The notes beneath the pieces are model-generated. The model had not been told where the DNA came from, did not search any database, and saw nothing but the letters and a program-made list of their open reading frames with translations. 64,000 bases of DNA from Martelella mediterranea (GTDB lineage Bacteria > Pseudomonadota > Alphaproteobacteria > Rhizobiales > Rhizobiaceae). The position numbers were made by a program, and so were the translations under genes. The stretch spans positions 1 through 64,000 of the forward strand of contig NZ_SMAR01000004.1 of assembly GCF_004342225.1 (NCBI RefSeq), given 5' to 3'. Positions 5,054 through 50,735 of this stretch are shown here, in pieces (positions within the stretch are counted from its first letter, which is position 1; the number at the start of each line of letters is the position of its first letter).

Positions 5054-5785
5054 CTATGTTTCGGCCAAAAGAGCAAGAAGTCTTGGCTCATCTGGGCTGT
5101 GGGCAATGGATATATTTGGCGAAAACTCAGCGGGAATAGCCTCTGCTACCTTCCGGCTGATGCACAGAAGGCGCATGCATTTTTCCGAAGAGGCGATATA
5201 CCGCATCACATTGAGCGAGAAAAAACGTTGAGCTGCAGCGCGGGAATAGAACAGAACGGCTGACGGCGATTGATCTCGCATCAGATTTTCAAGGTCATAC
5301 GCGGCATATTCAATCGGCTGCATGACGTAGACAGTCGCTGTCTCAAAATCGATTCCAAGCTGATGGAGCGTGTTTTCAAAGTCCGGAGCACGTGGACTTC
5401 CCGCCAGATAGAGAAGCGGAGAAGCGGCTGGGCTGGATGGCAGATATCCGGCAATGGTTCTGGCCAGCGACTGCCCGTCACCTTTGCCGGTGATGATATG
5501 GGTAAAACCGGTGCCGCGGGCAATGCACGCGGTGCGCTGCCCAACTGCGAAGACCGGTTTGTCTGCCAAAAAGGCGAGGCCCTCGCCAATGCTGAAGCCC
5601 GAAAGTGCTTCAGAACTGGTAATCGCAAGGGCCGACCAGTTGCGTCGCTTGAGAAAATCGAGCCGGGTGGCATCAAAGTGTTCTGGCTGAAACAGAGGCA
5701 GGCTGACCGGTTGATACCCCATGGCCGAAAGACGTGCACAGGTTCTGCGGGCTTTAGCCTCCGGCCGGGTCACCAGAACGCGCAA
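5054..5785 (-). CDS. hemD: Uroporphyrinogen-III synthase
   Basis: A 243-residue protein matching HemD in length and layout. It opens with VLVTRPE, then shows LAITSSEAL in the first domain, AVGQRTA before the linker, LYLAGSP at the start of the second domain and VLFYSRAAAQRFF later. HemD closes hydroxymethylbilane, with inversion of ring D, to give uroporphyrinogen III, the branch point to heme, siroheme and cobalamin. It follows hemC by 12 bases on the same strand, so the two enzymes of consecutive steps are co-transcribed. Confidence 0.93.
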   Translation of the reverse strand: MRVLVTRPEAKARRTCARLSAMGYQPVSLPLFQPEHFDATRLDFLKRRNWSALAITSSEALSGFSIGEGLAFLADKPVFAVGQRTACIARGTGFTHIITGKGDGQSLARTIAGYLPSSPAASPLLYLAGSPRAPDFENTLHQLGIDFETATVYVMQPIEYAAYDLENLMRDQSPSAVLFYSRAAAQRFFSLNVMRYIASSEKCMRLLCISRKVAEAIPAEFSPNISIAHSPDEPRLLALLAET

Positions 5786-5797
5786 ATCGACACTCCC

Positions 5798-6727
5798 TTA
5801 CGACCAGTCTTCGAAAAATCCGGAACCGGCACGCTCACGAAGCTTGTCTCCGGCCCATTTGCCGAGCTTGACGGCCTCTGTGCGCATGCCATCGGTCGCG
5901 ATATCGAAGGCTTTGCTGCCATCGGGCTTAAGAATCATGCCCGAAAATGACAGGCGCTCATTAAAACAACGGGCATAGGCGGCTATCGGCGTGCGGCAGG
6001 AGCCATCGAGAGCGGCCAGAAATGCCCGCTCACAGGCAACCGCATCGACAGTATCGCGGTCGTTTACCGGCGCCAGAAGGTCGCTGATGCGGCTGTCATT
6101 TTCACGCTGTTCGATGCAGATGGCCCCCTGCGCAGGCGCAGGCAGAAAATCGCGGACACTTAAAACTTCGGTGGCAACGTCATCCATACCAAGGCGCATC
6201 AGCCCGGCATTGGCCAGAAACGTTCCGTCCACCTGACCTTCTTTCAGTTTATTCAGTCGCGTCTGAACCGAGCCGCGAAACATCACGACCTCGATATCCG
6301 GGCGAAGACGGCGAATCAGGGCTTGTCGTCTTAAAGAGGACGAGCCGACCACCGCGCCTTCTGGCAGTTCGGACAACTTGTCGACCTTGCCGCCGATAAA
6401 GGCATCGCGTGGATCTGCACGCGGCAGAAATGTCGAAAGTGTGAGGCCAGCCGGCAGAACTGTCGGCATGTCTTTGGATGAGTGAACGGCAAAATCGAGT
6501 TCGCCGGAGAGAAGCTGGGCTTCCAGCTCTTCAGTGAATAGGCCCTTGCCGCCGATGGCTGAAAGCGGGCGATCGGTAATCCGGTCACCTTTTGTGGACA
6601 GAACCACAATTTCAAACATCTCCTGCGGCAGAGAGTGGGCTTGCATCAGCCGGTCGCGCGCTTCATAAGCTTGAGCCAGCGCCAGCGGGCTGCCGCGTGT
6701 TCCGATCCTGTAAGGTTTCGTTTGCAT
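5798..6727 (-). CDS. hemC: Porphobilinogen deaminase
   Basis: A 309-residue cytoplasmic enzyme. It shows the N-terminal [13 protein letters not shown], the HSSKDMP active-site region, GSSSLRRQA for substrate binding and, near residue 245, the dipyrromethane cofactor cysteine in [13 protein letters not shown]. HemC joins four porphobilinogen molecules into hydroxymethylbilane. It is the first gene of the minus-strand heme operon and is divergent from tsaD; only about 70 bases separate the two starts and must hold both promoters. Confidence 0.96.
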
Positions 6728-11663: not shown

Positions 11664-13502
11664 ATGGCACCTTCATCTTCCGAACAGAACGGCAAGGCCT
11701 ACGAATACGTTGACCACGCCTATGATGTGATTGTTGTTGGCGCGGGCGGTTCCGGTCTGCGCGCCACGCTGGGCATGGCCGAGCAGGGTTTCAAAACGGC
11801 GTGCATCACAAAAGTTTTTCCGACCCGTTCGCACACTGTTGCAGCGCAGGGCGGCATTGCGGCATCGCTCCAGAATATGACGCCTGACTGCTGGCAGTGG
11901 CACCTATACGATACTGTGAAAGGATCTGACTGGCTCGGCGATGTCGATGCCATGCAGTATCTGGCCATGGAGGCCCCTCAGGCTGTTTATGAGCTTGAGC
12001 ATTATGGTGTTCCCTTCTCCCGTAACGAAGAGGGCAAAATCTATCAGCGTCCGTTTGGCGGCCACATGCAGAATTATGGTGACGGACCGCCGGTTCAGCG
12101 CACCTGCGCCGCCGCAGACCGCACCGGTCACGCCATCCTGCATACGCTTTATGGCCAGTCGCTCAGGAACAATGCCGAATTCTTCATCGAATATTTCGCG
12201 CTTGATCTGATCATGAACGATGACGGTGTCTGCACCGGCGCTGTTGCCTGGAATCTCGATGATGGCACGATCCACCGATTCTCGGCGAAGATGGTTGTCC
12301 TGGCCACCGGTGGTTATGGTCGCACCTTCTTCTCCGCGACTTCGGCGCACACCTGCACCGGTGATGGCGCGGGTATGATTGCGCGTGCAGGCCTGCCCCT
12401 GCAGGATATGGAGTTCGTTCAGTTCCACCCGACTGGCATCTACGGCGCGGGCTGCCTGATTACTGAGGGCGCGCGCGGTGAAGGCGGCTACCTCACCAAT
12501 TCCGAAGGTGAGCGCTTTATGGAGCGTTATGCGCCGTCGGCCAAAGATCTGGCATCGCGTGACGTTGTCTCACGCTGCATGACGATGGAAATTCGCGAAG
12601 GGCGCGGTGTTGGTCCGAACAAGGATCATATCTTCCTGCACCTCGATCATCTTGATCCTGCCATTCTGGCTGAGCGTCTTCCCGGTATCTCGGAAAGCGC
12701 GCGCATCTTTGCCGGTGTCGATGTGACCCGCGAGCCGATCCCGGTTTTGCCGACCGTTCACTATAATATGGGCGGTATTCCGACAAACTACTGGGGCGAA
12801 GTGCTCAATGCCAATGCTGAAAATCCCGAGCGTGTCGCTCCCGGTTTGATGGCCGTTGGCGAAGCCGGATGCGCTTCTGTTCACGGGGCCAACCGCCTCG
12901 GCTCGAACTCGCTGATCGACCTTGTTGTTTTTGGACGTGCTGCTGCGATCCGTGCCGGACAGGTGATCGACCGCGAAAGCCCGATCCCGGCTTTGAATAC
13001 CGACGCCTGCGACAAGATCATGGAGCGTTTTGACAGCATCCGTCACGCAAACGGTTCGCAGCCAACTTCCGTGCTGCGTGACAAGATGCAGCGTGCCATG
13101 CAGGAAGATGCTGCCGTGTTCCGCACGCAGGAAACGCTTGAGCAGGGCTGCAAGCGCATCTCGGATATCTGGTCTGAGCTTCCGGATGTGAAGGTGACCG
13201 ACCGTTCGATGATCTGGAACTCGGACCTCGTGGAAACGCTTGAGCTTCACAATCTGATGGCATGCGCCATTACAACGGTCTATGGCGCCGAAGCGCGCAA
13301 GGAAAGCCGTGGCGCCCATGCCCGCGAGGATTATGTCGACGGGCCATTCTCCGGTCGTGATGATGAGAACTGGCGCAAGCATACGCTTTCGTGGGTGAGT
13401 GAAGCCGGTGAGGTGAAACTCGATTACCGCCCGGTTCATCAGGATCTGATCGCCGAGGGGATCGACATCAAGAAGATCGCGCCGAAAGCGCGCGTCTACT
13501 GA
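11664..13502 (+). CDS. sdhA: Succinate dehydrogenase flavoprotein subunit
   Basis: A 612-residue enzyme. The FAD loop [16 protein letters not shown] is at about 22-37; [13 protein letters not shown] carries the histidine that binds FAD covalently; [20 protein letters not shown] is part of the active site; and [11 protein letters not shown] is the late FAD motif. It oxidises succinate to fumarate in the citric acid cycle. I use the ATG at 11664; the in-frame ATG at 11640 lies inside sdhD. Third gene of the operon. Confidence 0.98.
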
Positions 13503-37822: not shown

Positions 37823-37914
37823 CGCGCTGTCATCCTCCCTTGTGGCAGCCCGCCTCCACAATTCGGCGGTCGGGCTTGAAAGTCGCCGCGTGTCGGACTA
37901 TCGTTGAACCTATC

Positions 37915-38006
37915 AATGTCCAATGGCGGGCATTCCATCGCAAAGCTGCGGATCCGAGAACCGTTTCCTTGAAAGGGAGCGCTTCGAACGATGCCGCGGC
38001 TTTTTT
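37915..38006 (+). promoter_or_regulatory. NasT (ANTAR) antitermination leader before nasA
   Basis: Hairpin P1: AATGTCC (37915-37921) and GGGCATT (37928-37934) around loop AATGGC. Hairpin P2: ATCGC (37937-37941) and GCGGAT (37948-37953, one bulged G) around loop AAAGCT. Both six-base loops have A at position 1 and G at position 4, the known ANTAR recognition rule. The right arm of P2 overlaps the left arm of a terminator: AAGCTGCGG (37943-37951) with CCGCGGCTT (37994-38002) and a T run to 38006. P2 and terminator cannot form together, so NasT binding would allow read-through into nasA. Confidence 0.78.
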
Positions 38007-38115
38007 GTTTTCATTTTAGACAGCGAGGAAAGCCGATGCCACCCCGGCCTATGATCCATTCTGCGCGTCATTTCCGGTACCCGTCAATCGTCCCTCTTCA
38101 AGGCGGGGGGCGGCG

Positions 38116-41100
38116 ATGGGCGTAGAGACCGTCAAAAGCATCTGTCCCTATTGCGGCGTCGGCTGCGGCGTGGTGCTCGATGTCGAGGACGGGCGGATTG
38201 TCCGGCTTTCCGGCGACAGGGAGCATCCTGCCAATCGCGGGCGGCTGTGCACCAAGGGCAAGACCGCGCATGAGGCCATCTCAGCGCTGGGCCGTCTCGA
38301 AACAGCGCTGGTCCGGCGGGAGGCGGATGTTGTGCCCGCAACCGCGTCTATCGAGACCGCCATCGCCGAGACGGCGCAGCGTTTGCGCGCCATCGCCGAT
38401 GAACACGGGCCGGACGCGGTTGCGCTCTATGTCTCCGGCCAGATGTCGATGGAGGCGCAGTATCTCGCCAATAAGCTCGCCAAGGGTTTTCTGCGCACCC
38501 GCCACATCGAATCCAATTCCAGGCTGTGCATGGCAAGCGCCGGCTCCGGCTACAAGCTGTCGCTCGGCGCGGACGCGCCGCCGGGTTCTTATGACGATAT
38601 CGAGAAGGCCGATCTGTTTCTGGTGATCGGCTCGAACATGGCCGATTGCCACCCGATCCTGTTTCTCAGGATGATGGACCGGATGAAACAGGGCGCAAAG
38701 CTGATCGTCGTCGATCCACGCCGCACGGCCACCGCCGAGAAGGCCGATCTGCATCTCGCGCCGAAACCCGGATCCGACCTCGCGCTGCTGAACGGCATCC
38801 TGCATCTGATCGTCGAAGCGGGCGGCATCGATCAGGCCTTTATCGACGCCCACACAGACGGCTGGGAGGGTATGCCCGCCTTTCTCGCGGACTATCCGCC
38901 GGAGCGGGTCGCGGCCATCACCGGTCTCACCGTGGAGGACATCAGGGCGACTGCCGACATGGTGCTTGCCGCCGGCGAATTCATGACGTTCTGGACCATG
39001 GGGTTGAACCAGTCGGTCCAGGGCACGTTCAACACCAATGCGATCTGCAATCTGCATCTGGCCATGGGAAAAATCTGTCGCCCGGGCAGCGGACCCTTCT
39101 CGCTGACGGGCCAGCCGAATGCCATGGGCGGGCGCGAGATGGGCTATATGGGGCCGGGGCTGCCGGGGCAGCGTTCGGCGCTGGTGGAGGTTGGCCGGCG
39201 CTATTGCGAAGAGCAGTGGGGACTTGCAGCCGGCACCATCCGCGCCGAGGAAGGCACCGGTACCATCGCCATGTTCGAGGCGATGGCGGCGGGCGCGATC
39301 AACGCCGCCTGGATCATCTGCACCAATCCTGTCGCCAGCGTCGCCAACCGCAAAACGGTGACGGCGGCGCTTGAGAGCGCCGAATTCGTCGCGGTGCAGG
39401 ATGCCTATGCCGAGACCGAAACCACGCCTTACGCCGATATCCTCCTGCCGGCGGCGGTCTCCTTCGAGGCCGATGGCGTCATGGTCAATTCCGAGCGCAA
39501 CATGGCGCTGACGGCGGCGGCAGCGAAGCCGCCGGGCGAGGCGCTGCCGGACTGGCAGATCATCGCGAAAGTCGCCTGCGCCATGGGCTATGAGGCAGCC
39601 TTCACCTATGACAGCGCAGCGGAGGTTTTCGAGGAAATCCGGCAGTTTTCCAACGCCGCGACGGGCTACGATATTTCCGGCGTCACGCATGAACGACTGC
39701 GGGAAGGCAGCATCCAGTGGCCGGCATCCGAGACCGGGCAAGCCACGACGCGCAATCCGATCCGCTACCGCGCGCCTGACAGAGGATTGACATTCGCCAC
39801 CGAAAGCGGTCGGGCGAAGTTATGGCCGCGGCCGCATGCCGGTCCGCGCGAAATGCCGGATGGCGACTATCCGTTCATTCTCAATACTGGCCGGCTGCAG
39901 CACCAGTGGCACACGATGACCAAGACCGGCAAGGTCGCCCGGTTGAACAAGCTCAATGCCGCGCCGTTCGTCGAGATCAACCCGGCCGATGCGGCGGCGC
40001 TTGCGATCGGCGAGGGTGACCGGGTTTCGGTTTGCTCGCGCCATGGCATGGCGATACTGCCTACCATCGTGACCGACCGGGTTTCGCCGGGCGCGCTGTT
40101 TGCGCCGTTTCACTGGAACGATGTGTTCGGCGATGATCTGGCGGTCAATGCGGTGACCGGCGATGCCGTCGATCCGATATCGCTCCAGCCGGAGTTCAAG
40201 GTGACGGCGGTTGCGCTCGCCCGCGTGGCGGCGGCGGAGCCCGATGCGCCGGTGGTTGCGCGGGGCAAGGTCGAGGCCGTGCCGGTGTTGGCGGAAGGCA
40301 AGGACGCGCAGCCGGACCCGAACCCGTCAAGGCCCGGTGTCTCCGTGTTATTCGCCTCGCAGACGGGGACTGCCGAAATGGCGGCCGCCGATCTTTGCGA
40401 CGCGCTTGGCGCGGCGGGGTACCGCGCGGCATTGCGTCCGCTCGACGCGGTCTCGCCGCATGACCTTGCGACAAAGGAGCCAGTACTTTTCATCGTCAGC
40501 ACCTTCGGCGATGGCGATCCGCCCGATCATGCGGACGATTTCTGGGCGGCGCTCTTGCGCGAGGATGCGCCGCGACTGGAGGACCTCAGCTACGCCGTGG
40601 TGGCGATGGGCGACAGTTCCTATGATCAATTCTGCGGCTTCGGCCGGAAACTGGATGACCGGCTCGAAGCGCTCGGCGGCGTGCGTCTGGCGGCATGCCG
40701 CACGCTGGATGCGGGCGAGGAGGGGGACGCGGTTTCAGCGGCGATGGCCGCTCTTTCCGGGTCTTCGAATGGCGTCTCGGCTTCGGCTGAAACCGCCGTC
40801 CGATCCAATGGGCGGAAACCGCCGCAGACCGTTGCGGCCAGGCTCAGCGTCAACCGGCTTTTGAGCGGGTCCGGCAGCGCCAAGGAGGTGCGCCAGTTCG
40901 GCTTCCGGGTCGATGGCGCGGCGGATTACGAGGCGGGCGACGCGCTTTCCATCATGCCGCGCAACTGTCCCGAGCTTGTCGAGGAAATCCTGACCTCTCT
41001 GCAATTGCCGGCGGAAACGCCGATTTCCGGCATCAACGGCCACGATATCGGCATTGGGGAGGCATTGCGCGATCATTTCGAGATCGGTCAGCCGCATCCG

Positions 41101-41925
41101 GATTTCCTAAAATGGTGGGCGGATTTCAGTGGCCATGAAACGCTGAAGGCGCTGACAAATTCGGCCGACCGGAAAGCCCTCAATGACTGGCTGTGGGGTC
41201 GGCAGATCGCCGACATTGTCGCCATCGCGCCGAAACCCGTCGACGGGCAGGCGTTCTGCGACCATCTGAAAAAGCTCAAGCCGCGGCTCTATTCGATTGC
41301 CTCCAGCCCGAAGGCGAGCCCGGATGAAATTCACCTGACGGTTTCGGTGCTGCGCCATGCCCGCCATGGCAAAAGCCGCAAGGGCGTCGCCTCGGCGTTT
41401 CTGGCGGACAGGGCGGCGGCCGAGCCGGTGCGTGTTTCGGTGAAGAAACAGGCGCATTTCCGCCCGCCCGCCGATCCAGACACCCCGGCAATCATGGTCG
41501 GCCCGGGCACCGGCATCGCGCCTTTCCGCGCCTTTTTGCAGGACCGGGAGGCGGCAGGCGCGGGCGGGGCGAACTGGCTCTTCTTCGGCGAGCAATCGCG
41601 TGACAGCGGCTATTATTATCGCGACGAAATCGAGGCCTGGCTGAAGGGCGGGTTGCTGACCCGCTTCGACACCGCCTTTTCGCGCGACCAGGCGGAGAAG
41701 ATCTATGTCCAGCACCGCATGGCGGAAAACGGGCGCGAAATCTGGAACTGGCTGGAGGAGGGCGCGCATTTTTATGTCTGCGGCGATGCCAGCCGCATGG
41801 CGAAGGATGTGGATGCAGCACTTCGGGCGATTGCCGAGACCCATGGCGGGCTTTCGCAAGCGGCCGCCGAAGGCTACGTTAAGACGCTCGTCCGGGAAAA
41901 ACGCTATATGCGCGATGTCTACTGA
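38116..41925 (+). CDS. nasA: Assimilatory nitrate reductase fused to flavodoxin/NADPH reductase
   Basis: A 1,269-residue cytoplasmic enzyme. Residues 1-700 form a molybdopterin oxidoreductase with the [4Fe-4S] ligands Cys10, Cys13, Cys17 and Cys45 (CPYCGVGCG, then RLCTKGK), [14 protein letters not shown] and [10 protein letters not shown]. From about 740 a flavodoxin domain begins ([14 protein letters not shown]), followed by an FAD/NADPH module as in sulfite reductase alpha ([39 protein letters not shown]) to the end. It would reduce nitrate to nitrite directly from NADPH without a separate reductase gene. The start has a purine-rich GGCGGGGGGCGG upstream. Confidence 0.93.
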
Positions 41926-41946
41926 ACCTATTGCGGAAGCCGCCTC

Positions 41947-42537
41947 ATGAACACCAGTGATCTGGCGATCCTTGTCATCGATGAAAACGCGATCCGCGCC
42001 GCCATTATCCGGGACGGCCTGCTCAAGGCCGGCCACCACAATGTGACCGTGGTCGAGGAACTGGTCGGCGTCGCCCGCCCGATCGAGCGCTTGTCGCCGG
42101 ACGTGATCGTGATCGACATCGAAAACCCCAATCGGGACATGCTCGAAAGCCTGTTCGTGCTGTCGCGCACGGTGAAAAAGCCGATTGCGATGTTCGTCGA
42201 CCGGTCCGATGCCGAAACCATCCACGCCGCCGTGGAGGCCGGGGTTTCGGCCTATGTCGTCGACGGGCTGAAGCAGGAGCGGGTCAAGCCGATCCTCGAC
42301 ATGGCGATCTCCCGTTTCAACGCCTTTTCGCGCATGGCGCAGGAGCTTGAGGCGGCGAAGAGCCAACTCGAAAACCGCAAGGTGGTCGACCGCGCCAAGG
42401 CGCTTTTGATGAAATCGCGGGGCATGGACGAGGAAAAGGCCTATGCGCTGCTGCGGCGCACGGCGATGGATCAGAACCGCAAGATTGTCGATGTGGCGCA
42501 AAGCCTGATCATGACGTTCGAGATGCTGGAGAGATGA
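41947..42537 (+). CDS. nasT: ANTAR-domain antiterminator NasT
   Basis: A 196-residue protein. The N-terminal receiver-like domain (ILVIDENAIRAAIIRDGL, VIVIDIENPNRDM) is followed after a coiled linker by the ANTAR domain at about 135-195: LENRKVVDRAKALLMKSRGMDEEKAYALLRR. ANTAR domains bind paired RNA hairpins and prevent termination. NasS holds NasT inactive without nitrate. The two leaders at 37915-38006 and 43899-43979 are its likely targets. It overlaps nasS by four bases. Confidence 0.94.
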   Translation: MNTSDLAILVIDENAIRAAIIRDGLLKAGHHNVTVVEELVGVARPIERLSPDVIVIDIENPNRDMLESLFVLSRTVKKPIAMFVDRSDAETIHAAVEAGVSAYVVDGLKQERVKPILDMAISRFNAFSRMAQELEAAKSQLENRKVVDRAKALLMKSRGMDEEKAYALLRRTAMDQNRKIVDVAQSLIMTFEMLER

Positions 42538-43760
42538 AGATGCAGGACCTTTCAATCGGATTTGTGCCGCTTCTCGACAGCGCCATCGTTCTGGCGGCGG
42601 AGGCGAAGGGCTTTTTCGTCGAGGAGAGGCTGAATGTCCGCCTCACCCGGGAAACCTCGTGGAGCGCGATCCGCGACCGGCTGGCCGTCGGCAGTCTGCA
42701 GGCGGCCCATGTGCTGGCGCCGATGCCGATTGCCGCCAATCTCGGCCTGTTTCCGCTGGCGCCGAAACTGATGGCGCCGATTGCGCTCGGGCTCGGCGGC
42801 AATGCGGTGACGGTGTCGGCGGGGCTCGGCGCTGCGATGGAAGCGGAGGGCGATGAGAGCGATCTTGACCCGGCCAAAGCCGGTGCGGCGCTGAAACGCG
42901 TGATTGCGGCGAGAAAGGCTGAAGGCCTGCCGCCGCTGCGTTTCGGGGTCGTCTACGTGTTTTCCGGGCATAATCTCGAACTGCGCTACTGGCTGGCGGC
43001 CAACGGCATCGACCCGGACCGGGATATCGAGATCGTGGTGCTGCCGCCGCCCTTCATGCCGGATGCGGTGGAAGCCGGGCGGATCGACGGTTACTGCGCC
43101 GGCGAGCCGTGGAACACGATTGCCGCGCGGCGCGGGGCGGCGCGGATCGTCACCGTCAAGGCGAAGATCTGGCGCTCCAGCCCGGAAAAGGTGCTGGCGC
43201 TGCCGGCCGATTTCGTGGAGGCCAACGAGGAGACCGTGGCGGCGTTGCTGCGCGGGCTCTACCGGGCCTCGCAATGGGCGGCCGCGCCGGAAAACCACCC
43301 GGAACTGGCCGCGATCCTCGCCGAGCCGGGCCATCTCGATGTCGACCGGGCGATGCTCGAGCCTCTGTTCTCCGGAACGCTGGCGATCAGCGACAAGGCG
43401 CAAACCACGGTCGAGGATTTCTTTCTGACATCCGCCAAGGCCGCGACCTTTCCCTGGCAGAGCCATGCACTGTGGTTCTACAGCCAGCTTGTGCGCTGGG
43501 GGCTTTGCGATCATTCGGCCGAAAACGCCGAGATCGCGAAAATGAGCTATCGGCCGGATATCTATCGCAAGGCGCTCCAGCCGTTGCACACGCCCTTGCC
43601 GGGGGCCAGCCTGAAGGTGGAAGGCGCGTTGAAGGCGCCGACGCCGGTGGGGGCGAGCGCCGGCGGTCTCATCCTCGGTCCCGACGGCTTTTTCGACGGG
43701 CAGACCTTCGATCCCGATCAGGTGGGTGCCTATATCGATAAGCAGAAGGCGGCGATCTGA
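42534..43760 (+). CDS. nasS: Nitrate sensor NasS (NrtA-like)
   Basis: A 408-residue protein of the NrtA/CmpA substrate-binding family: [47 protein letters not shown] and IDGYCAGEPWN. It has no signal peptide, so it stays in the cytoplasm, which separates it from the transporter NrtA downstream. NasS binds NasT and releases it when nitrate is bound. The pair is co-translated (ATGA overlap). Confidence 0.93.
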   Translation: MKMQDLSIGFVPLLDSAIVLAAEAKGFFVEERLNVRLTRETSWSAIRDRLAVGSLQAAHVLAPMPIAANLGLFPLAPKLMAPIALGLGGNAVTVSAGLGAAMEAEGDESDLDPAKAGAALKRVIAARKAEGLPPLRFGVVYVFSGHNLELRYWLAANGIDPDRDIEIVVLPPPFMPDAVEAGRIDGYCAGEPWNTIAARRGAARIVTVKAKIWRSSPEKVLALPADFVEANEETVAALLRGLYRASQWAAAPENHPELAAILAEPGHLDVDRAMLEPLFSGTLAISDKAQTTVEDFFLTSAKAATFPWQSHALWFYSQLVRWGLCDHSAENAEIAKMSYRPDIYRKALQPLHTPLPGASLKVEGALKAPTPVGASAGGLILGPDGFFDGQTFDPDQVGAYIDKQKAAI

Positions 43761-43772
43761 GCCCGTATTTTA

Positions 43773-43789
43773 TGCGCCTTTCGGGTGCA
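43773..43789 (+). promoter_or_regulatory. NtrC-type site before nrtA
   Basis: TGCGCC-TTTCG-GGTGCA matches the TGCACC-N5-GGTGCA NtrC consensus with one mismatch. It lies in the nasS-nrtA intergenic region, about 230 bases upstream of nrtA and upstream of the antitermination leader. NtrC control of nitrate uptake under nitrogen limitation is expected. I could not find a convincing sigma-54 -24/-12 pair downstream; the best (around 43841-43858) has the wrong spacing. Confidence 0.55.
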
Positions 43790-43847
43790 TTTGCATAAAT
43801 TTTAGTCTGTTTTCCGATTCATACATTTTTTATGCAAAAATCTGCCG

Positions 43848-43870
43848 ATGCCGCTTGTCTGAAGCGGCAT
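43848..43870 (+). promoter_or_regulatory. Perfect hairpin upstream of the nrtA leader
   Basis: ATGCCGCTT (43848-43856) and AAGCGGCAT (43862-43870) form a 9-bp perfect stem with a five-base loop. It lies 29 bases before the first ANTAR hairpin. It may be part of the leader RNA fold or a protein site. Confidence 0.45.
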
Positions 43871-43898
43871 AGTGTGTTTCCATAAGCCTCAAGAATTC

Positions 43899-43979
43899 GG
43901 TGCCCAATGGAGGGTGCCAGGCAACGCCGCCAACGCAATCGCGCCACAACTGGCACGAGGACCGTTAGGCGGCTTTTTT
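43899..43979 (+). promoter_or_regulatory. NasT (ANTAR) antitermination leader before nrtA
   Basis: Hairpin P1: GGTGCCC (43899-43905) and GGGTGCC (43912-43918) around loop AATGGA. Hairpin P2: GGC (43920-43922) and GCC (43929-43931) around loop AACGCC. Both loops have A1 and G4. P2's right arm lies within the terminator's left arm GCCGCC (43926-43931), which pairs with GGCGGC (43968-43973) before a six-T run (43974-43979). The design equals that of the nasA leader, so NasT should release both operons together. P2 is short (3 bp) and is the weakest part. Confidence 0.75.
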
Positions 43980-44016: not shown

Positions 44017-45390
44017 ATGCGCCATTTCCTTTGCTCCGTCACCATGCTTTGTTCGCTCGCCGTCACGGCCGCGAGCGCCCATGCCGAAATGCTGTTTCCG
44101 GAAAAGGACGAACTGACCATTGGCTTCATCAAGCTGACGGACATGGCGCCGCTGGCAATTGCCAAGGAGATGCATTTTTTCGAGGATGAGGGCCTATACG
44201 TGACGCTTGAGGCGCAGGCGAACTGGAAGGTCCTGCTCGACCGGGTGATCACCGGCGAGCTCGACGGCGCGCATATGCTGGCCGGCCAGCCGCTGGCGGC
44301 AACCATCGGCTATGGCACCGAGGCGCATATCGTCACGCCGTTCTCGATGGACCTCAACGGCAATGCGATCACGGTCTCCAATGCGGTCTGGGTTCAGATG
44401 AAGGAAAACATTCCTGCTGGCCCCGATGGCAAGTCGCTACACCCGATCAGCGCCGATGCGCTGAAGCCGGTGGTCGAGGCCTACAAGGCCGAGGGCAAGC
44501 CGTTCAAGATGGGCATGGTCTTCCCGGTCTCCACCCATAATTACGAACTGCGCTACTGGCTGGCGGCCGGCGGCATCAATCCCGGCTATTACTCGCCGGG
44601 CGATATTTCCGGCCAGATCCAGGCCGATGCGCTGCTTTCCGTCACCCCGCCGCCGCAGATGCCGGCGACGATGGAAGCGGGAACCATCGATGGCTACTGC
44701 GTCGGCGAGCCGTGGAACCAGGCGGCCGTGTTCAAGGGCATCGGTGTGCCGGTCGTCACCGATTACGACATCTGGAAGAACAATCCGGAAAAGGTGTTCG
44801 GCCTGACAGAGGAATTCACGCAAAAATATCCGCAGACGACGCTGGGTCTTACCAAGGCGCTGATCCGCGCCGCCATGTGGCTCGATGAAAACAACAACGC
44901 CAATCGCGAGGAAGCGGTCAAAATCCTGTCGCGGCCGGAATATGTCGGGGCGGATGCCGAGGTGATCGCCAATTCGATGACCGGCACCTTCGAATATGAG
45001 AAGGGCGACACGCGCCTGGCTGCGGACTTCAACGTCTTTTTCCGCCACTACGCTACCTATCCCTATTATTCCGATGCCGTCTGGTACCTGACGCAGATGC
45101 GCCGCTGGGGCCAGATCGCCGAGCCGCAGCAAGACGGCTGGTATGACGAGGTCGCACGCTCGGTCTATCTGCCGGATATCTATCTGGAGGCCGCCCGCCA
45201 GCTGATCGACGAGGGCCATGCCACGGAAGCCGACTTCCCGTTCGACACCGACGGCTACAAGCCCGCAACAAACGAATTCATCGACGGCGTGACCTATGAC
45301 GGCCGCCATCCCAACGCCTATCTCGAAAGCGTTCCAATCGGACTGAAGGGGGAAGAGATTATCGACGGCAACAAGATTGCCGGACGCTGA
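44017..45390 (+). CDS. nrtA: Nitrate ABC transporter substrate-binding protein
   Basis: A 457-residue protein. A Sec signal peptide (hydrophobic [16 protein letters not shown], cut near AHA-E at about residue 23) exports it to the periplasm. [56 protein letters not shown] and [13 protein letters not shown] are NrtA/NasF family segments. I use the ATG at 44017, five bases after GGAGG. It starts the nrtABD-nirBD-cysG transcript behind the NasT leader. Confidence 0.95.
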
Positions 45391-45431: not shown

Positions 45432-46508
45432 ATGACCATTGCCACAGACCTGATGGACCCCGAAATCGCCGCCCGGCGCGAACGGCGCATCGCCCGGATC
45501 AACCGGGCGGGCAAGGTGCTCGCCCCGTTCGGCCTCGGCTTCGTGGTGCCGCTCCTGAAACTCGCCGCCGGCGACACGCCGTCGGAACAATGGGCGGATC
45601 TGAAGCAGATGCTGCTTGTGCCCATGATCGGCATTCTGGCGTTTCTGGCGGCCTGGGCATTCCTGGCGCCGAAGGTCCATACCTCGCTCGGCGCGATCCC
45701 CGGCCCGGCGGCGGTGTTCCAGCAGGCCGAGGTGCTGATGGACGATCATTTCGCTGAACGGCAGAAGGCCGAGGAATTCTACGCCCGGCAGGACGAGCGC
45801 AACCAGATGTTGATCGCCGAAGGCTATGGCGACCGGGTGAAGGTGCGGCCCTATACCGGCAAGCCGACCTATCTGGACCAGATCTGGACCTCGCTGCTGA
45901 CGGTCGCGCTCGGTTTCTTCATCGGCACGGTGATTGCCGTTCCGGTCGGCATAGCCTGCGGGTTGTCGAAGACCTTCGAGGGCGCGATCAATCCGCTGAT
46001 CCAGCTGTTCAAGCCGGTCTCGCCGCTCGCCTGGCTGCCGATCGTGACCATGGTGGTGGCAGCGCTTTACGAAAGCCAGAACGACCTTCTGCCAAAGTCG
46101 ATGGTGATCTCGGCGATCACGGTAACGCTCTGTTCCATCTGGCCGACGATCATCAACACCGCCCTTGGTGTCGCTTCCATTGATCGCGATCTCGTCAATG
46201 TCGGCAAGGTGCTGCAGCTTTCCACCTGGACGACGATCCGCAAGCTGGTGCTGCCGTCCTCGCTGCCGCTGATCTTCACCGGCATGCGGCTTTCGCTCGG
46301 TGTTGGCTGGATGGTGCTGATCGCCGCGGAAATGCTGGCCCAGAACCCCGGCCTCGGCAAATTCGTCTGGGACGAGTTCCAGAACGGCTCCTCGGATTCG
46401 CTCGCCCGCATCATCGTCGCGGTGATCACCATCGGCCTGATCGGCTTCTTCCTCGACCGGGTGATGTTCGCGCTGCAGACCGCCTTCACCTATTCGGCGA
46501 ACCGGTAA
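45432..46508 (+). CDS. nrtB: Nitrate ABC transporter permease
   Basis: A 358-residue protein with six or more spans. The first 60 residues are an N-terminal extension with one span (about 55-75), then the permease domain: [22 protein letters not shown]-like segment near 150, [10 protein letters not shown], and the EAA-loop equivalent near [17 protein letters not shown]. It forms the membrane channel with the ATPase encoded next. Seven bases separate it from the next start. Confidence 0.93.
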
Positions 46509-46515
46509 GGAGGGC

Positions 46516-48282
46516 ATGATGAACAGCATTCTTCAGCTCAAAAACGTCGAAAAAGGCTTTGGCGAAGGCCTCAAGCGCAACCCCGTGCTTTCCGATATTT
46601 CGCTCGATGTGCACGAAGGCGAATTCATCGCGATCCTCGGTTTTTCCGGGGCGGGCAAGACGACGCTGATGTCGATGCTCGCCGGTCTGGAAAAGCCCGA
46701 CAGCGGGGAAATTCTGTTTCGCGGCGCGCTGGTGGAAGGCCCGTCGCCGAAGCGCGGGATCGTGTTCCAGAACTATGCGCTGATGCCCTGGCTTTCGGTG
46801 GAGGCCAATGTGCGGCTCGCCGTCGACGCCGTGCATCAGGACAAGTCGGCAAAGGAGCGGGCCGCGCTCGTCGACTGGTATGTGGCGATGGTTGGTCTGA
46901 AACATGCCCGCGACCGCAAGCCGTCGGAGCTTTCCGGCGGCATGCGCCAGCGCGTCTCGGTCGCCCGCGCGCTCGCCATGCAGCCGGACCTGCTGCTGCT
47001 TGATGAGCCGCTGTCCGCGCTCGATGCGCTGACCCGCGCAAAGCTCCAGGACGAGCTTGCCGATATTTCGCAGAAAGAGAAGAAGACCATCATCCTCGTC
47101 ACCAATGATGTCGACGAGGCCATTCTTCTGGCCGATCGGATCGTGCCGCTGACGCCCGGCCCCAACGCCACTTTCGGCCCGTCCTTCGATGTGAACATTG
47201 CCCGGCCGCGCGAGCGTGCGGCAATGAATTCCGACCCGGATTTCATCCGGCTTCGCTCGGCTGTCACCGAATATCTGATGGATGCGGGCCTCGGCGCGAA
47301 GCCGGAAACTTCCCGTGTCGATGCTCTGCCGAATGTCGTCCCGATTTCCATCAAGTCGACCTCGAAACCGTTGCCCGCCGTCTATAGGGAGAAAGCGCAG
47401 TCGGCGATCGAGACCGGCTATGTCGAGTTTTCCAACGTCACCAAGATCTACCCGACGCCCAAGGGCCCGCTGACGGTCGTCGATGGCTTCGACCTGAAGA
47501 TGAAGAAGGGCGAGTTTATCTCCATCATCGGCCACTCCGGCTGCGGAAAGTCCACGGTCCTGTCGATGGCGGCGGGGCTCAACCCGATCAATGCCGGGGG
47601 CATTATTCTCGATGGCCGCGAGATATCCGGCGCCGGGCCGGATCGTGCCGTGGTGTTTCAGGCTCCCTCGCTGATGCCCTGGCTGACGGCCCGCGAAAAT
47701 GTCGCGCTCGGCGTAGACCGGGTCTATCCCAAGGCAAGCCCCGCCGAACGGCGCGATGTCGTCGAATATTATCTCGAGCGCGTCGGTCTTGGCGATGCGA
47801 TGAACCGTGCGGCGGCCGACATGTCGAACGGCATGAAGCAACGCGTCGGTATTGCCCGTGCCTTCGCGCTGTCGCCAAAGCTCTTACTGCTCGACGAGCC
47901 CTTCGGCATGCTCGACAGCCTGACCCGCTGGGAGCTGCAGGAGGTGCTGATGGAGGTCTGGTCGCGCACCAAGGTCACCGCCATCTGCGTGACCCATGAT
48001 GTTGACGAAGCCATTCTCCTGGCCGACCGGGTGGTGATGATGTCGAACGGGCCGAACGCCCGCATCGGCAATATCATGGAGGTCGACCTGCCGCGCCCGC
48101 GCTCTCGGAAAGCGCTGCTCGACCACCCGGATTATTACGCCTACCGCGAGGAACTGCTGGAGTTTCTCGAAGCCTATGAGGGCGGCGCTTCGCCCGCCGA
48201 GGAACAGCTCGCCGCCATCAGGCAGAAGCGCGACCAGCGCATCAGCCGGCAGACCTGCAACAAACGCGTCGCAGCGGAGTAG
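46516..48282 (+). CDS. nrtD: Nitrate ABC transporter ATPase with two nucleotide-binding domains
   Basis: A 588-residue protein with two complete ABC ATPase units. Unit one (1-260): Walker [10 protein letters not shown], signature [10 protein letters not shown], Walker [14 protein letters not shown]. Unit two (about 300-560): [20 protein letters not shown] and [12 protein letters not shown]. In cyanobacteria NrtC is an ATPase joined to an NrtA-like domain, and NrtD is a single ATPase. Here two ATPases are joined instead, supplying both from one gene. The second signature SNGMKQ lacks the usual SGG, so the two sites may not be equal. GGAGG-like bases precede the start. Confidence 0.92.
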
Positions 48283-48287
48283 ACATC

Positions 48288-50735
48288 ATGGCCCAGAAAC
48301 TTGTCATCATCGGAAACGGCATGGCCCCCGGCCGCATGCTCGAAGAGCTGTTCGAGCGCGCCCCCGGCCTCTATGACGTCACCATCTTCAACGCCGAACC
48401 GCGGGTGAACTACGACCGCATCATGCTGTCGCCGGTGCTTTCCGGTGAAAAGACCTATGAGGATATCATCATCCATGGCGATGACTGGTATGAAGCCCAT
48501 GGCGTGACGCTGCATCGCGGCGCGAAGGTTTCGAAGATCGACCGGGAGGCGAGGACCGTGACCGCCGAAAACGGCGTCACCGCATCCTATGACCGGCTGG
48601 TGATCGCGACCGGTTCCTCGCCCTTCATCATCCCGGTGCCGGGCCACGATCTGCCCGGCGTGCTCGCCTATCGCGACCTCGATGATGTTGAGAAGATGCT
48701 GAAGATCGCCGAGGGGCACGGCCATGCGGTGGTCATCGGCGGCGGGCTTCTGGGCCTTGAAGCGGCCTACGGGCTGAAGCAGCGCGGCATGAGCGTCACG
48801 GTACTGCACCTGATGGACACGATCATGGAGCGCCAACTCGATCCGGCCGCCGCCTATCTTCTGGAAAAGGCGCTGGACGAGCGGGGCATCGAGATCATCA
48901 CCAAGGCCAATACCAAACAGATTCTCGGGAGTGGCAAAGTTGAAGGCGTTGAGCTGGAGGATGGCCGCATCATCTCCGCCGATATGGTGGTGATGGCGGT
49001 GGGCATCCGCCCGGCGGCAGGATTGGCGAAGGAGGCCGGACTTGAGGTCAATCGCGGCATCGTCGTCGATGATGGCATGGCGACCTCCGATCCGTCGATC
49101 TTCGCGCTCGGCGAATGCGCGGAGCATCGCGGCACCTGCTACGGTCTCGTCGCGCCGCTTTATGAGAGTGCTTCCGTGCTGGCCGACCGGCTTGCCGGCG
49201 GCGCGGCGGAATACAACGGCTCGCATGTCAACACCAAGCTGAAGGTCACCGGCATCAAGCTGTTTTCCGCCGGCGATTTCGCCGAGGGGCCGGACCGCGA
49301 GGAGGTGGTGCTGCGCGATGCCACGCGCGGCGTTTACAAGCGCGTGATCCTGCAGGATAACCGGGTGATCGGCGCCGTGCTTTATGGCGACACCGCCGAT
49401 GGCGCCTGGTATTTCGACATGCTGAAGCGCGGGACGGACGTTTCCGAAATGCGCGAGACGCTGATCTACGGCCAAGCCTATCAGGGCGGTGCTGCGGCCG
49501 ATCCGGCAGCGGCCGTCGCGGCGCTTCCGGATGACGCGGAAATCTGCGGCTGCAACGGCATCTGTAAGGGCAAGATCGTCTCCGCGATCAAGGACAAGGG
49601 GCTGACCTCGCTCGACGATGTCCGCGCCCACACCAAGGCCTCGGCGTCGTGCGGCACCTGCACCGGGCTGGTCGAACAGCTGATGGCGCTGACGCTGGGC
49701 GATGCCTATAACCCCGCCGCCGTCCAGCCGGTCTGCGGCTGCACCGATCTCGGCCATGACGGTGTGCGCCGCCTGATCCGCGCCAAGGGGCTGAAGACCA
49801 TTCCCGCCGTGATGCAGGAGCTTGAATGGAAAACCTCCTGCGGCTGCGCCAAATGCCGCCCGGCGCTCAATTACTATCTCGTCTGCGACTGGCCCGGCGA
49901 ATATGCCGACGACTATCAGTCGCGCTTCATCAACGAGCGCGTTCACGCCAATATCCAGAAGGACGGCACCTATTCGGTGGTGCCGCGCATGTGGGGCGGT
50001 GTCACCTCATCGAAGGAGCTGCGCGCGATCGCCGATGTCGTCGACAAATACGAGATCCCGACCGTCAAATGCACCGGCGGCCAGCGCATCGACATGCTGG
50101 GCGTGAAAAAGGAGGACCTGCCGGCGGTCTGGGCCGATCTCGGCAAGGCGGGCTTCGTCTCCGGCCAGGCCTATGCCAAGGGCCTGCGCACGGTGAAGAC
50201 CTGCGTCGGCAGCGATTGGTGCCGCTTTGGCACGCAGGATTCCACCGGTCTGGGCATCCGCCTTGAAAAATTCATGTGGGGCTCGTGGACGCCGGCCAAG
50301 CTGAAGCTCGCCGTTTCCGGCTGCCCGCGCAACTGCGCCGAGGCCACCTGCAAGGATATCGGCGTGATCTGCGTCGACAGTGGCTTCGAAATCCATTTCG
50401 CCGGTGCGGCCGGGCTGGAAATCCGTGGCACGGAAGTGCTCGGCCTGGTCAGGACCGAGGGCGAGGCGCTGGAGCATATCGTGGCGCTCACCCAGATGTA
50501 TCGCGAACAGGCGCGCTATCTGGAGCGCATCTACAAATGGGCAAAGCGCATCGGCTATGACGAGGTGCGCGCCCAGATCATGGACGATGCCGAAAAGCGC
50601 AAGGCCTATTTCGAGCGCTTCGTCGAAAGCCAGAAATACGCCCAGGTCGACCCGTGGTCGGAGCGTGTCTCCGGCAAGGACAAGCACGAGTTCAAGCCGA
50701 TGGCCGTGGTCGGGCATCCCGAACCGGCGGAGTGA
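48288..50735 (+). CDS. nirB: Nitrite reductase (NADH) large subunit
   Basis: An 815-residue enzyme. The FAD/NAD domain (1-390) starts LVIIGNGMAPGRMLEE with a second loop AVVIGGGLLGLEAAYGL. Two BFD-like [2Fe-2S] regions follow (CGCNGICKGKIVSAI with CGTCTGLVEQL, then CGCTDLGHDGVRRLI). The C-terminal siroheme-[4Fe-4S] domain has TVKTCVGSDWCRFGTQ and SGCPRNCAEATCKD. It reduces nitrite to ammonium in six-electron transfer. It starts five bases after the ATPase gene. Confidence 0.97.
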   Translation: MAQKLVIIGNGMAPGRMLEELFERAPGLYDVTIFNAEPRVNYDRIMLSPVLSGEKTYEDIIIHGDDWYEAHGVTLHRGAKVSKIDREARTVTAENGVTASYDRLVIATGSSPFIIPVPGHDLPGVLAYRDLDDVEKMLKIAEGHGHAVVIGGGLLGLEAAYGLKQRGMSVTVLHLMDTIMERQLDPAAAYLLEKALDERGIEIITKANTKQILGSGKVEGVELEDGRIISADMVVMAVGIRPAAGLAKEAGLEVNRGIVVDDGMATSDPSIFALGECAEHRGTCYGLVAPLYESASVLADRLAGGAAEYNGSHVNTKLKVTGIKLFSAGDFAEGPDREEVVLRDATRGVYKRVILQDNRVIGAVLYGDTADGAWYFDMLKRGTDVSEMRETLIYGQAYQGGAAADPAAAVAALPDDAEICGCNGICKGKIVSAIKDKGLTSLDDVRAHTKASASCGTCTGLVEQLMALTLGDAYNPAAVQPVCGCTDLGHDGVRRLIRAKGLKTIPAVMQELEWKTSCGCAKCRPALNYYLVCDWPGEYADDYQSRFINERVHANIQKDGTYSVVPRMWGGVTSSKELRAIADVVDKYEIPTVKCTGGQRIDMLGVKKEDLPAVWADLGKAGFVSGQAYAKGLRTVKTCVGSDWCRFGTQDSTGLGIRLEKFMWGSWTPAKLKLAVSGCPRNCAEATCKDIGVICVDSGFEIHFAGAAGLEIRGTEVLGLVRTEGEALEHIVALTQMYREQARYLERIYKWAKRIGYDEVRAQIMDDAEKRKAYFERFVESQKYAQVDPWSERVSGKDKHEFKPMAVVGHPEPAE

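Follow-up and report, generated by a model that had tools for sequence, protein, structure and literature searches.

How might one nitrate-responsive regulator serve two operons when its own gene lies between their leaders? The question is raised by a stretch of 64,000 nucleotides (nt) of Martelella mediterranea (contig NZ_SMAR01000004.1, positions 1 to 64,000), called the window below, whose forward strand carries, in this order, a first leader, nasA, nasT, nasS, a second leader, nrtA, nrtB, nrtC and nirB. It is highly probable that the two leaders are cis-acting antitermination elements of the ANTAR type and jointly make up the genome's NasT regulon, and both are very probably opened by one nitrate-responsive protein. 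The anatomy of the RNA, its conservation and covariation, the single ANTAR gene, the two targets standing far above the next candidate and the gene order were computed here; NasT binding, the response to nitrate and the dependence on NasT are attributed to the locus by analogy with its relatives.

Each leader is composed of two hairpins, P1 and P2, and an intrinsic terminator (lines of evidence in brackets):

37915-37934, forward strand: P1 of the nasA leader, AATGTCC[AATGGC]GGGCATT, 7 base pairs (bp) (sequence, fold, pattern).
37938-37951, forward strand: P2, the antiterminator, of the nasA leader, CGC[AAAGCT]GCG at 37939-37950 (fold, pattern, model).
37942-38006, forward strand: intrinsic terminator of the nasA leader, AGCTGCGG...CCGCGGCT, overlapping P2, with T6 at 38001-38006 (fold, pattern, covariation).
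43899-43918, forward strand: P1 of the nrtA leader, GGTGCCC[AATGGA]GGGTGCC, 7 bp including two G-U pairs (sequence, fold, pattern).
43920-43931, forward strand: P2, the antiterminator, of the nrtA leader, GGC[AACGCC]GCC, 3 bp (fold, pattern, model).
43926-43979, forward strand: intrinsic terminator of the nrtA leader, GCCGCC...GGCGGC, overlapping P2, with T6 at 43974-43979 (fold, pattern, covariation).

All four hexaloops have A at position 1 and G at position 4 (A1 and G4), and the CGC/GCG stem of the nasA leader is flanked by an outer T-G pair (37938-37951). A first-pass annotation of this DNA had placed the leaders at 37915-38006 and 43899-43979 with these loops and letters, and its description holds to the base. 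The same is true of its claim that the second hairpin shares bases with the left arm of a T-tailed terminator: in each leader the 3' arm of P2 and part of its loop form part of that arm. Both leaders have the make-up of ANTAR dual-hexaloop elements, i.e. two hairpins with six-base loops, stems of at least 3 bp and A1/G4 in both loops. The overlap and the folding energies make P2 and the U-tract terminator mutually exclusive in both cases. Nascent RNA ending at P2 forms both hairpins (in the nasA leader the first and last bases of the P2 loop also pair), but once the right arm of the terminator is made, the latter has an advantage of about 10 to 13 kcal/mol. The terminator fold reaches -38.4 versus -25.8 kcal/mol for the structure with P1 and P2 enforced in the nasA leader, and -39.4 versus -29.6 in the nrtA leader. 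A bound protein would therefore be needed to keep P2, as in the published ANTAR model, where the protein holds P2 against the terminator (PMC3369931, PMC3369936, PMC8934654). As a whole, the leaders fold better than shuffled sequences (z = -2.6 and -2.7).

The two devices are more than a product of chance. A strict pattern was defined as a P1 of at least 6 bp and a P2 of at least 3 bp, both closing as C[A..G..]G with loops 15-24 apart, followed by a terminator stem of at least 6 bp that overlaps P2 and by T4. A search of both strands of the window gives two matches in all, at the two leaders, and 100 dinucleotide-shuffled versions of the 64 kb contain none. Two covariance models of the P1-P2 core were also built, R1 from 45 distinct cores that include both window leaders and R2 from 38 cores, leaving out seven Martelella-group rows. 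In scans of the 4.3 Mb genome, in which the best 150 first-look candidates were scored, R1 gives the leaders E values of 3e-6 and 7e-5 with the next candidate at 0.86, both leaders being part of its training set. R2 ranks them first and second as well (6.4e-6 and 1.3e-3; next 0.52, or 0.066 within the window). The nasA leader outscores the nrtA leader in both models. Rfam 15 matches neither leader with any family and reports only two tRNAs in the window; at E up to 10 each leader region receives one chance match.

The genome encodes one ANTAR protein, NasT. A sample of 101 family genomes contains 62 with an ANTAR gene; the RNA element is present in 28, every one of which belongs to these 62 (Fisher p 8.8e-8). 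Proximity points the same way, as 28 of the 30 family elements lie within 3 kb of a strong ANTAR match, the exceptions being the window's first leader and one remote element in G064. Strong matches (E up to 5e-18) occur in 48 of these genomes, 20 of which have no R1 match, and all 20 were inspected. Three carry a leader like those of the window (type 1; L183, L196, L198) and 12 a second leader type, recognised by a strict pattern with terminator. Three more are assigned to the second type by a relaxed pattern with the terminator unchecked (L184, L186, L197); L188 has hairpins without a T tract and L187 has none. A leader consequently accompanies NasT in 43 of the 48 genomes by strict patterns or model; including the relaxed pattern raises this number to 46.

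The relatives examined are the best 80 NasT loci, 78 of which extend past nasS. Of the latter, 77 have a canonical leader behind nasS; the exception, L027 (about 12010-12105), has the same form except that its P2 loop starts with G (GAAGCC). A canonical leader precedes nasA in six of nine evaluable loci. P1 and P2 are supported by compensatory changes: in the 45 distinct cores, standard pairs fill 97.3% of the cells, and both sides have changed in 24 of them, versus a mean of 4.5 after shuffling, and none of 500 shuffles reaches either observed value. The double changes fall on three of the seven P1 pairs and one of the three P2 pairs, the outer one, which occurs as GGC/GCC, CGC/GCG and AGC/GCT. 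Most of this signal disappears when the pairing partner is shifted by one to three columns. The terminators of 37 leaders behave similarly (95.3% paired, 32 double-change cells, no shuffle out of 500 as high on either). Covariance in homologous leaders was the check that the first-pass annotation had named; it was run and came out in favour of NasT antitermination, with compensatory changes present and R2 placing both leaders on top, and that reading is supported. The same annotation regarded the 3-bp P2 stem of the nrtA leader as the weak point, a view to be abandoned: by pattern count, 69 of 85 leaders have 3 bp and 16 have 4 bp, and the published motif sets three bp as the minimum for its hexaloop hairpin stems (PMC3369931), so a short P2 is the rule.

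Several observations weigh against this interpretation. Taken by itself, the P1-P2 segment is no more stable than its shuffled versions (z 0.3 and -0.4). A simple scan misses both terminators, whose loops exceed its range of 3-8 bases, and gives no promoter for the second leader. The number of pairs with a double change is not clearly above shuffles (70/500 as high for P1/P2, 73/500 for the terminator), nor is that of further pair types (40/500 and 410/500), and the shuffles do not preserve relatedness. Two of the 13 Martelella genomes lack any element. The narK gene of Bradyrhizobium, despite its predicted NasT hairpins, rises in a nasT mutant under denitrifying conditions (PMC6759348). The leader before nasA is also less universal, as three of the nine evaluable loci fail the strict form: L008 (about 5780-5866) has G at position 1 of the P2 loop (GAAGCT), while the Xanthobacter loci L009 (about 5735-5820) and L010 (about 5785-5872) keep a P2 of the form GGC[AAAGCC]GCC and an overlapping terminator, their upstream hairpin having no canonical A1/G4 six-base loop and hence no canonical P1. 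Finally, the collecting pattern demands pairing and A1/G4, so that the paired percentage and the invariance of the letters are partly built in, even if L027 was the only one of the 78 leaders after nasS to fail it. For this reason the 78 loci were searched again with no demand on loop letters. The device was found in 76, with A1 in the P1 loop of 75 and G4 likewise in 75, but in the best-scoring P2 register A1 appears in 27 and G4 in 30 of the 76. This ambiguity comes from many Mesorhizobium rows in which CAG[GCAAAG]CTG scores as well as or better than GGC[AAAGCT]GCC; the register adopted here rests on the known motif and on the covarying outer pair. The competing P2 register is possible after nasS in L016, L018-L021 and many more Mesorhizobium rows.

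Strong terminators end both leaders, and that of nrtA comes after nasS; one could thus suppose that the hairpins are the upper parts of ordinary constitutive terminators of upstream transcripts, and that the likeness of the loops reflects common descent or chance. This is most improbable. P1 lies outside the terminator and is nonetheless conserved with compensatory changes, its loop retains A1 and G4 in the letter-free control, the shuffled windows contain no strict match and the presence of the element tracks that of ANTAR genes. The altered leaders in L008, L009 and L010 suggest another scenario, in which the nrtA leader alone works as a NasT target and the nasA leader is decaying, given that the leader before nasA in Xanthobacter has no canonical P1. 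We consider it very unlikely, because the nasA leader is canonical and nearly unchanged in six of the seven Martelella-group nasA-nasT loci (L002-L007, not L008) and scores above the nrtA leader in both models.

Antitermination by NasS-NasT through an ANTAR domain is already known; the Martelella locus is new, and its gene order is uncommon. No report of it was found in the literature searched for Martelella nasT and NasT leaders. The leaders resemble the dual-hexaloop leaders of EutV/eutP, NasR/nasF and AmiR/amiE in their two A1/G4 hexaloop hairpins with stems of at least 3 bp and in the overlap of P2 with the left arm of an intrinsic terminator (Ramesh 2012, PMC3369931; Stewart and van Tilbeurgh 2012, PMC3369936); they differ from them in stem sequences and in fronting the nas genes of a Martelella-like bacterium. 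The closest parallel in content is Paracoccus denitrificans, which also has nasT, nasS and a hairpin leader before structural genes. There, nitrate releases NasT from NasS and the freed NasT binds the nasA leader (PMC3795266), hairpin I of this leader is required for growth on nitrate (PMC5424462), and NasT-dependent control was shown experimentally (PMC3795266, PMC5424462). The arrangement differs: in Paracoccus nasTS comes first and a single leader lies between nasS and nasA (PMC3795266, PMC5424462), whereas in Martelella nasA and its own leader precede nasTS and a second leader follows nasS. One NasT for several separate transcription units has a precedent in Bradyrhizobium, a rhizobial relative, whose NasT regulon comprises narK-bjgb-flp-nasC, nirA and nosR (PMC4724949, PMC6759348). 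NasT is needed there for the nitrate induction of two units, nasC and nirA lying about 2 Mb apart (PMC4724949), whereas the Martelella units flank nasTS. The amiEBCRS operon of Pseudomonas aeruginosa likewise has a leader before an enzyme gene and its sensor and ANTAR regulator in the same operon, which puts the regulator downstream of the leader it acts on, but it responds to amides through AmiC-AmiR and amiC precedes amiR (PMC3795266, PMC3369936).

On the model of these systems, NasS would hold NasT when nitrate is lacking, P2 would lose to the longer terminator and transcription would stop before nasA and nrtA. Binding of nitrate or nitrite by NasS would free NasT, which would bind the P1 and P2 hexaloops and keep P2 as an antiterminator, and polymerase would then enter two units, leader-nasA-nasT-nasS and leader-nrtABC-nirB. 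The genes concerned are the following:

38116-41925, forward strand: nasA, nitrate reductase (molybdopterin) fused to a CysJ-like flavoprotein reductase, 1269 amino acids.
41947-42537, forward strand: nasT, receiver-like domain and ANTAR domain, 196 amino acids.
42534-43760, forward strand: nasS, nitrate-sensor-like NMT1_2 protein, overlapping the end of nasT.
44017-45390, forward strand: nrtA, nitrate transporter substrate-binding protein, with a signal-peptide-like N-terminus (by eye).
45432-48282, forward strand: nrtB (45432-46508) and nrtC, a double ATPase (46516-48282).
48288-50735, forward strand: nirB, nitrite reductase large subunit (TIGR02374, 900 bits).

NasT matches PF03861 (72.0 bits) and PF00072 (34.9 bits), both above cut-off. 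NasS is recognised by PF13379 and no signal peptide was seen at its N-terminus, which was judged by eye alone. The nrtA start at ATG 44017 has GGAGG ahead of it; the list of open reading frames instead begins the gene at TTG 44005. The closest NasT loci, L002-L007, belong to Martelella except L005 (Marinicella sp. W31), which groups with them. Martelella radicis DSM 28101 has two nasA-nasT-nasS-nrt-nirB clusters on separate contigs (L004 and L006), with both leaders in each.

The position of nasT and nasS has a further implication. The first-pass annotation assigned both operons to one NasT encoded between them. The single ANTAR gene and the two targets bear this out, but nasTS is not a separate unit: it sits behind the first leader, 21 bases after nasA, and that leader therefore probably controls its own regulator. 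Judging by gene order alone, regulator synthesis is probably part of a feedback loop. Leaky read-through would supply a little NasS-NasT, and nitrate would then raise both enzyme and regulator. In the set of 80 relatives, leaders ahead of nasT itself, or of a nasA situated ahead of nasT, were encountered only in the Martelella group, where the order is nasA-nasT-nasS, and in altered form before the nasA of Xanthobacter, which has the same order; upstream of nasT the scan covered 350 bases. The stronger version, that Martelella makes NasS-NasT only through its own NasT-dependent leader, giving a positive feedback checked by the NasS made with it, strikes us as nearly an even bet, leaning slightly to the negative. 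If true, it could produce a sharp threshold or a memory of nitrate, in contrast to Paracoccus, whose nasTS is driven by NtrC.

The alternative is that the leaders are NasT targets and that nasT-nasS is expressed from its own promoter inside nasA, in which case there would be no feedback and the level of the regulator would be constant. We hold this to be a real possibility, short of an even chance. In other relatives nasT-nasS precedes the leader, Paracoccus nasTS has its own NtrC-controlled promoter, and among loci without a preceding nasA only L023 shows a hairpin pair within 350 bases upstream of nasT, one without a terminator. The narrow gap of 21 bases between nasA and nasT speaks against it. 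A scan for sigma70-like sites found none near nasT, weak evidence given that the scan was also blank before the second leader. Synonymous-site conservation likewise gave no sign of a promoter within the 3' end of nasA, and this too is weak evidence: 12 of 17 fourfold-degenerate sites in the last 40 codons are variable in six sequences, i.e. not unusually conserved. Control of nasTS by the first leader remains the probable arrangement.

Candidate sites upstream of the two leaders are as follows:

37876-37904, forward strand: sigma70-like promoter of the nasA leader, TTGAAA, 17 nt, TATCGT (scan, 9/12 matches).
43773-43789, forward strand: TGC-N11-GCA palindrome upstream of the nrtA leader, NtrC-like candidate (in 7/8 aligned sequences: window, L002-L007).
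43855-43883, forward strand: weak promoter candidate of the nrtA leader, TTGTCT, 17 nt, TTCCAT (by eye only).

The first is kept in seven of eight aligned sequences (window and L002-L007, not L008) and, as a predicted promoter, is expected to start the RNA a few bases before P1. The palindrome may be an NtrC site. Between 43785 and 43845, upstream of the second leader, inverted TTTGCATAAA and TTTATGCAAA are partly conserved in Martelella and could be the site of a further regulator. A perfect palindrome reported by the simple scan at 43848-43870 was considered as a terminator of nasS and rejected, as it is no longer palindromic in relatives.

At least two elements per genome are found in 11 of the 13 Martelella genomes, with four strong elements in G108. 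They are uncommon elsewhere, both in the family sample (2/101: G000, G064) and in a sample of 397 genomes of the order, of which 54 have an element and 12 have two or more. Nine of these multi-element genomes were inspected. The second leader follows transporter genes, 1.4-1.7 kb before nirB, in G116, G236, G384 and G416; it lies ahead of a distant nirB in G287, G438 and G473, and ahead of a distant copy of nrtA in G064. In G317 no nas gene is near the second element. Such varied layouts suggest that the splitting of one NasT regulon over two leaders probably arose more than once. Two-leader loci in other layouts are L163, L164, L165, L166/L167, L168, L169, L170/L171 and L173/L174. Extra weak R1 matches in G108 and G317 were set aside as probably due to chance, none of the seven window genes being nearby (L175, L172). 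With its two leaders and one regulator, the compact Martelella regulon offers a clean case for studying how one ANTAR protein serves two targets, and it is also suited to asking whether autoregulation through the regulator's own leader alters the response. Since Rfam 15 has no match to the window leaders, the comparative set could help to seed an RNA family; a possible seed would be the 85 canonical leaders together with the second leader type.

This second type occurs at 15 family NasT loci (L179-L182, L184-L186, L189-L195 and L197; for example L192:6753-6813), after nasS, which at most of them is divergent. It consists of a P1 with loop AA.G.., an extra hairpin in the linker and then a P2 of the form GAC[A..G..]GTC, with an overlapping terminator in the 12 loci that pass the strict pattern. 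The loops are separated by 35-48 nt, versus 11-16 in type 1. A sigma54-like TGGCA(C/T)-N5-TTGC was seen by eye upstream in 12 of the 15 (not in L186 or L197; L185 was left out). P1 and P2 are paired in 97% of cells and 10 P1 cells change on both sides; P2 is invariant, but the pattern had prescribed it. Compared with shuffles the linkers fold more stably, with a mean z of -2.0 and 12 of 15 below -1. Antitermination by EutV was lost in vitro when the linker was made 20 nt longer (PMC8934654), and an inserted hairpin that brings both loops together would make sense in view of this limit. The leader set also bears on the permissible distance between the two hexaloops, and the linker-hairpin leaders may be more interesting than the paired leaders themselves. 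No description of this type was found in the open-licence literature searched. A model of it, R3, gave nothing convincing in the Martelella genome (best E 0.017); matches at E up to 0.05 occur in 67 of the 101 genomes, a level that amounts to noise.

A side observation concerns NasA, which is fused to a CysJ-like reductase. Among 103 genomes of the order with a nasA match, it aligns over its full length in this genome only. Two plasmid stretches with a fused NasA (L177, L178) show no R1 match. Full-length fused relatives, annotated as bifunctional, occur in Burkholderia, Novosphingobium and Streptomyces plasmid records.

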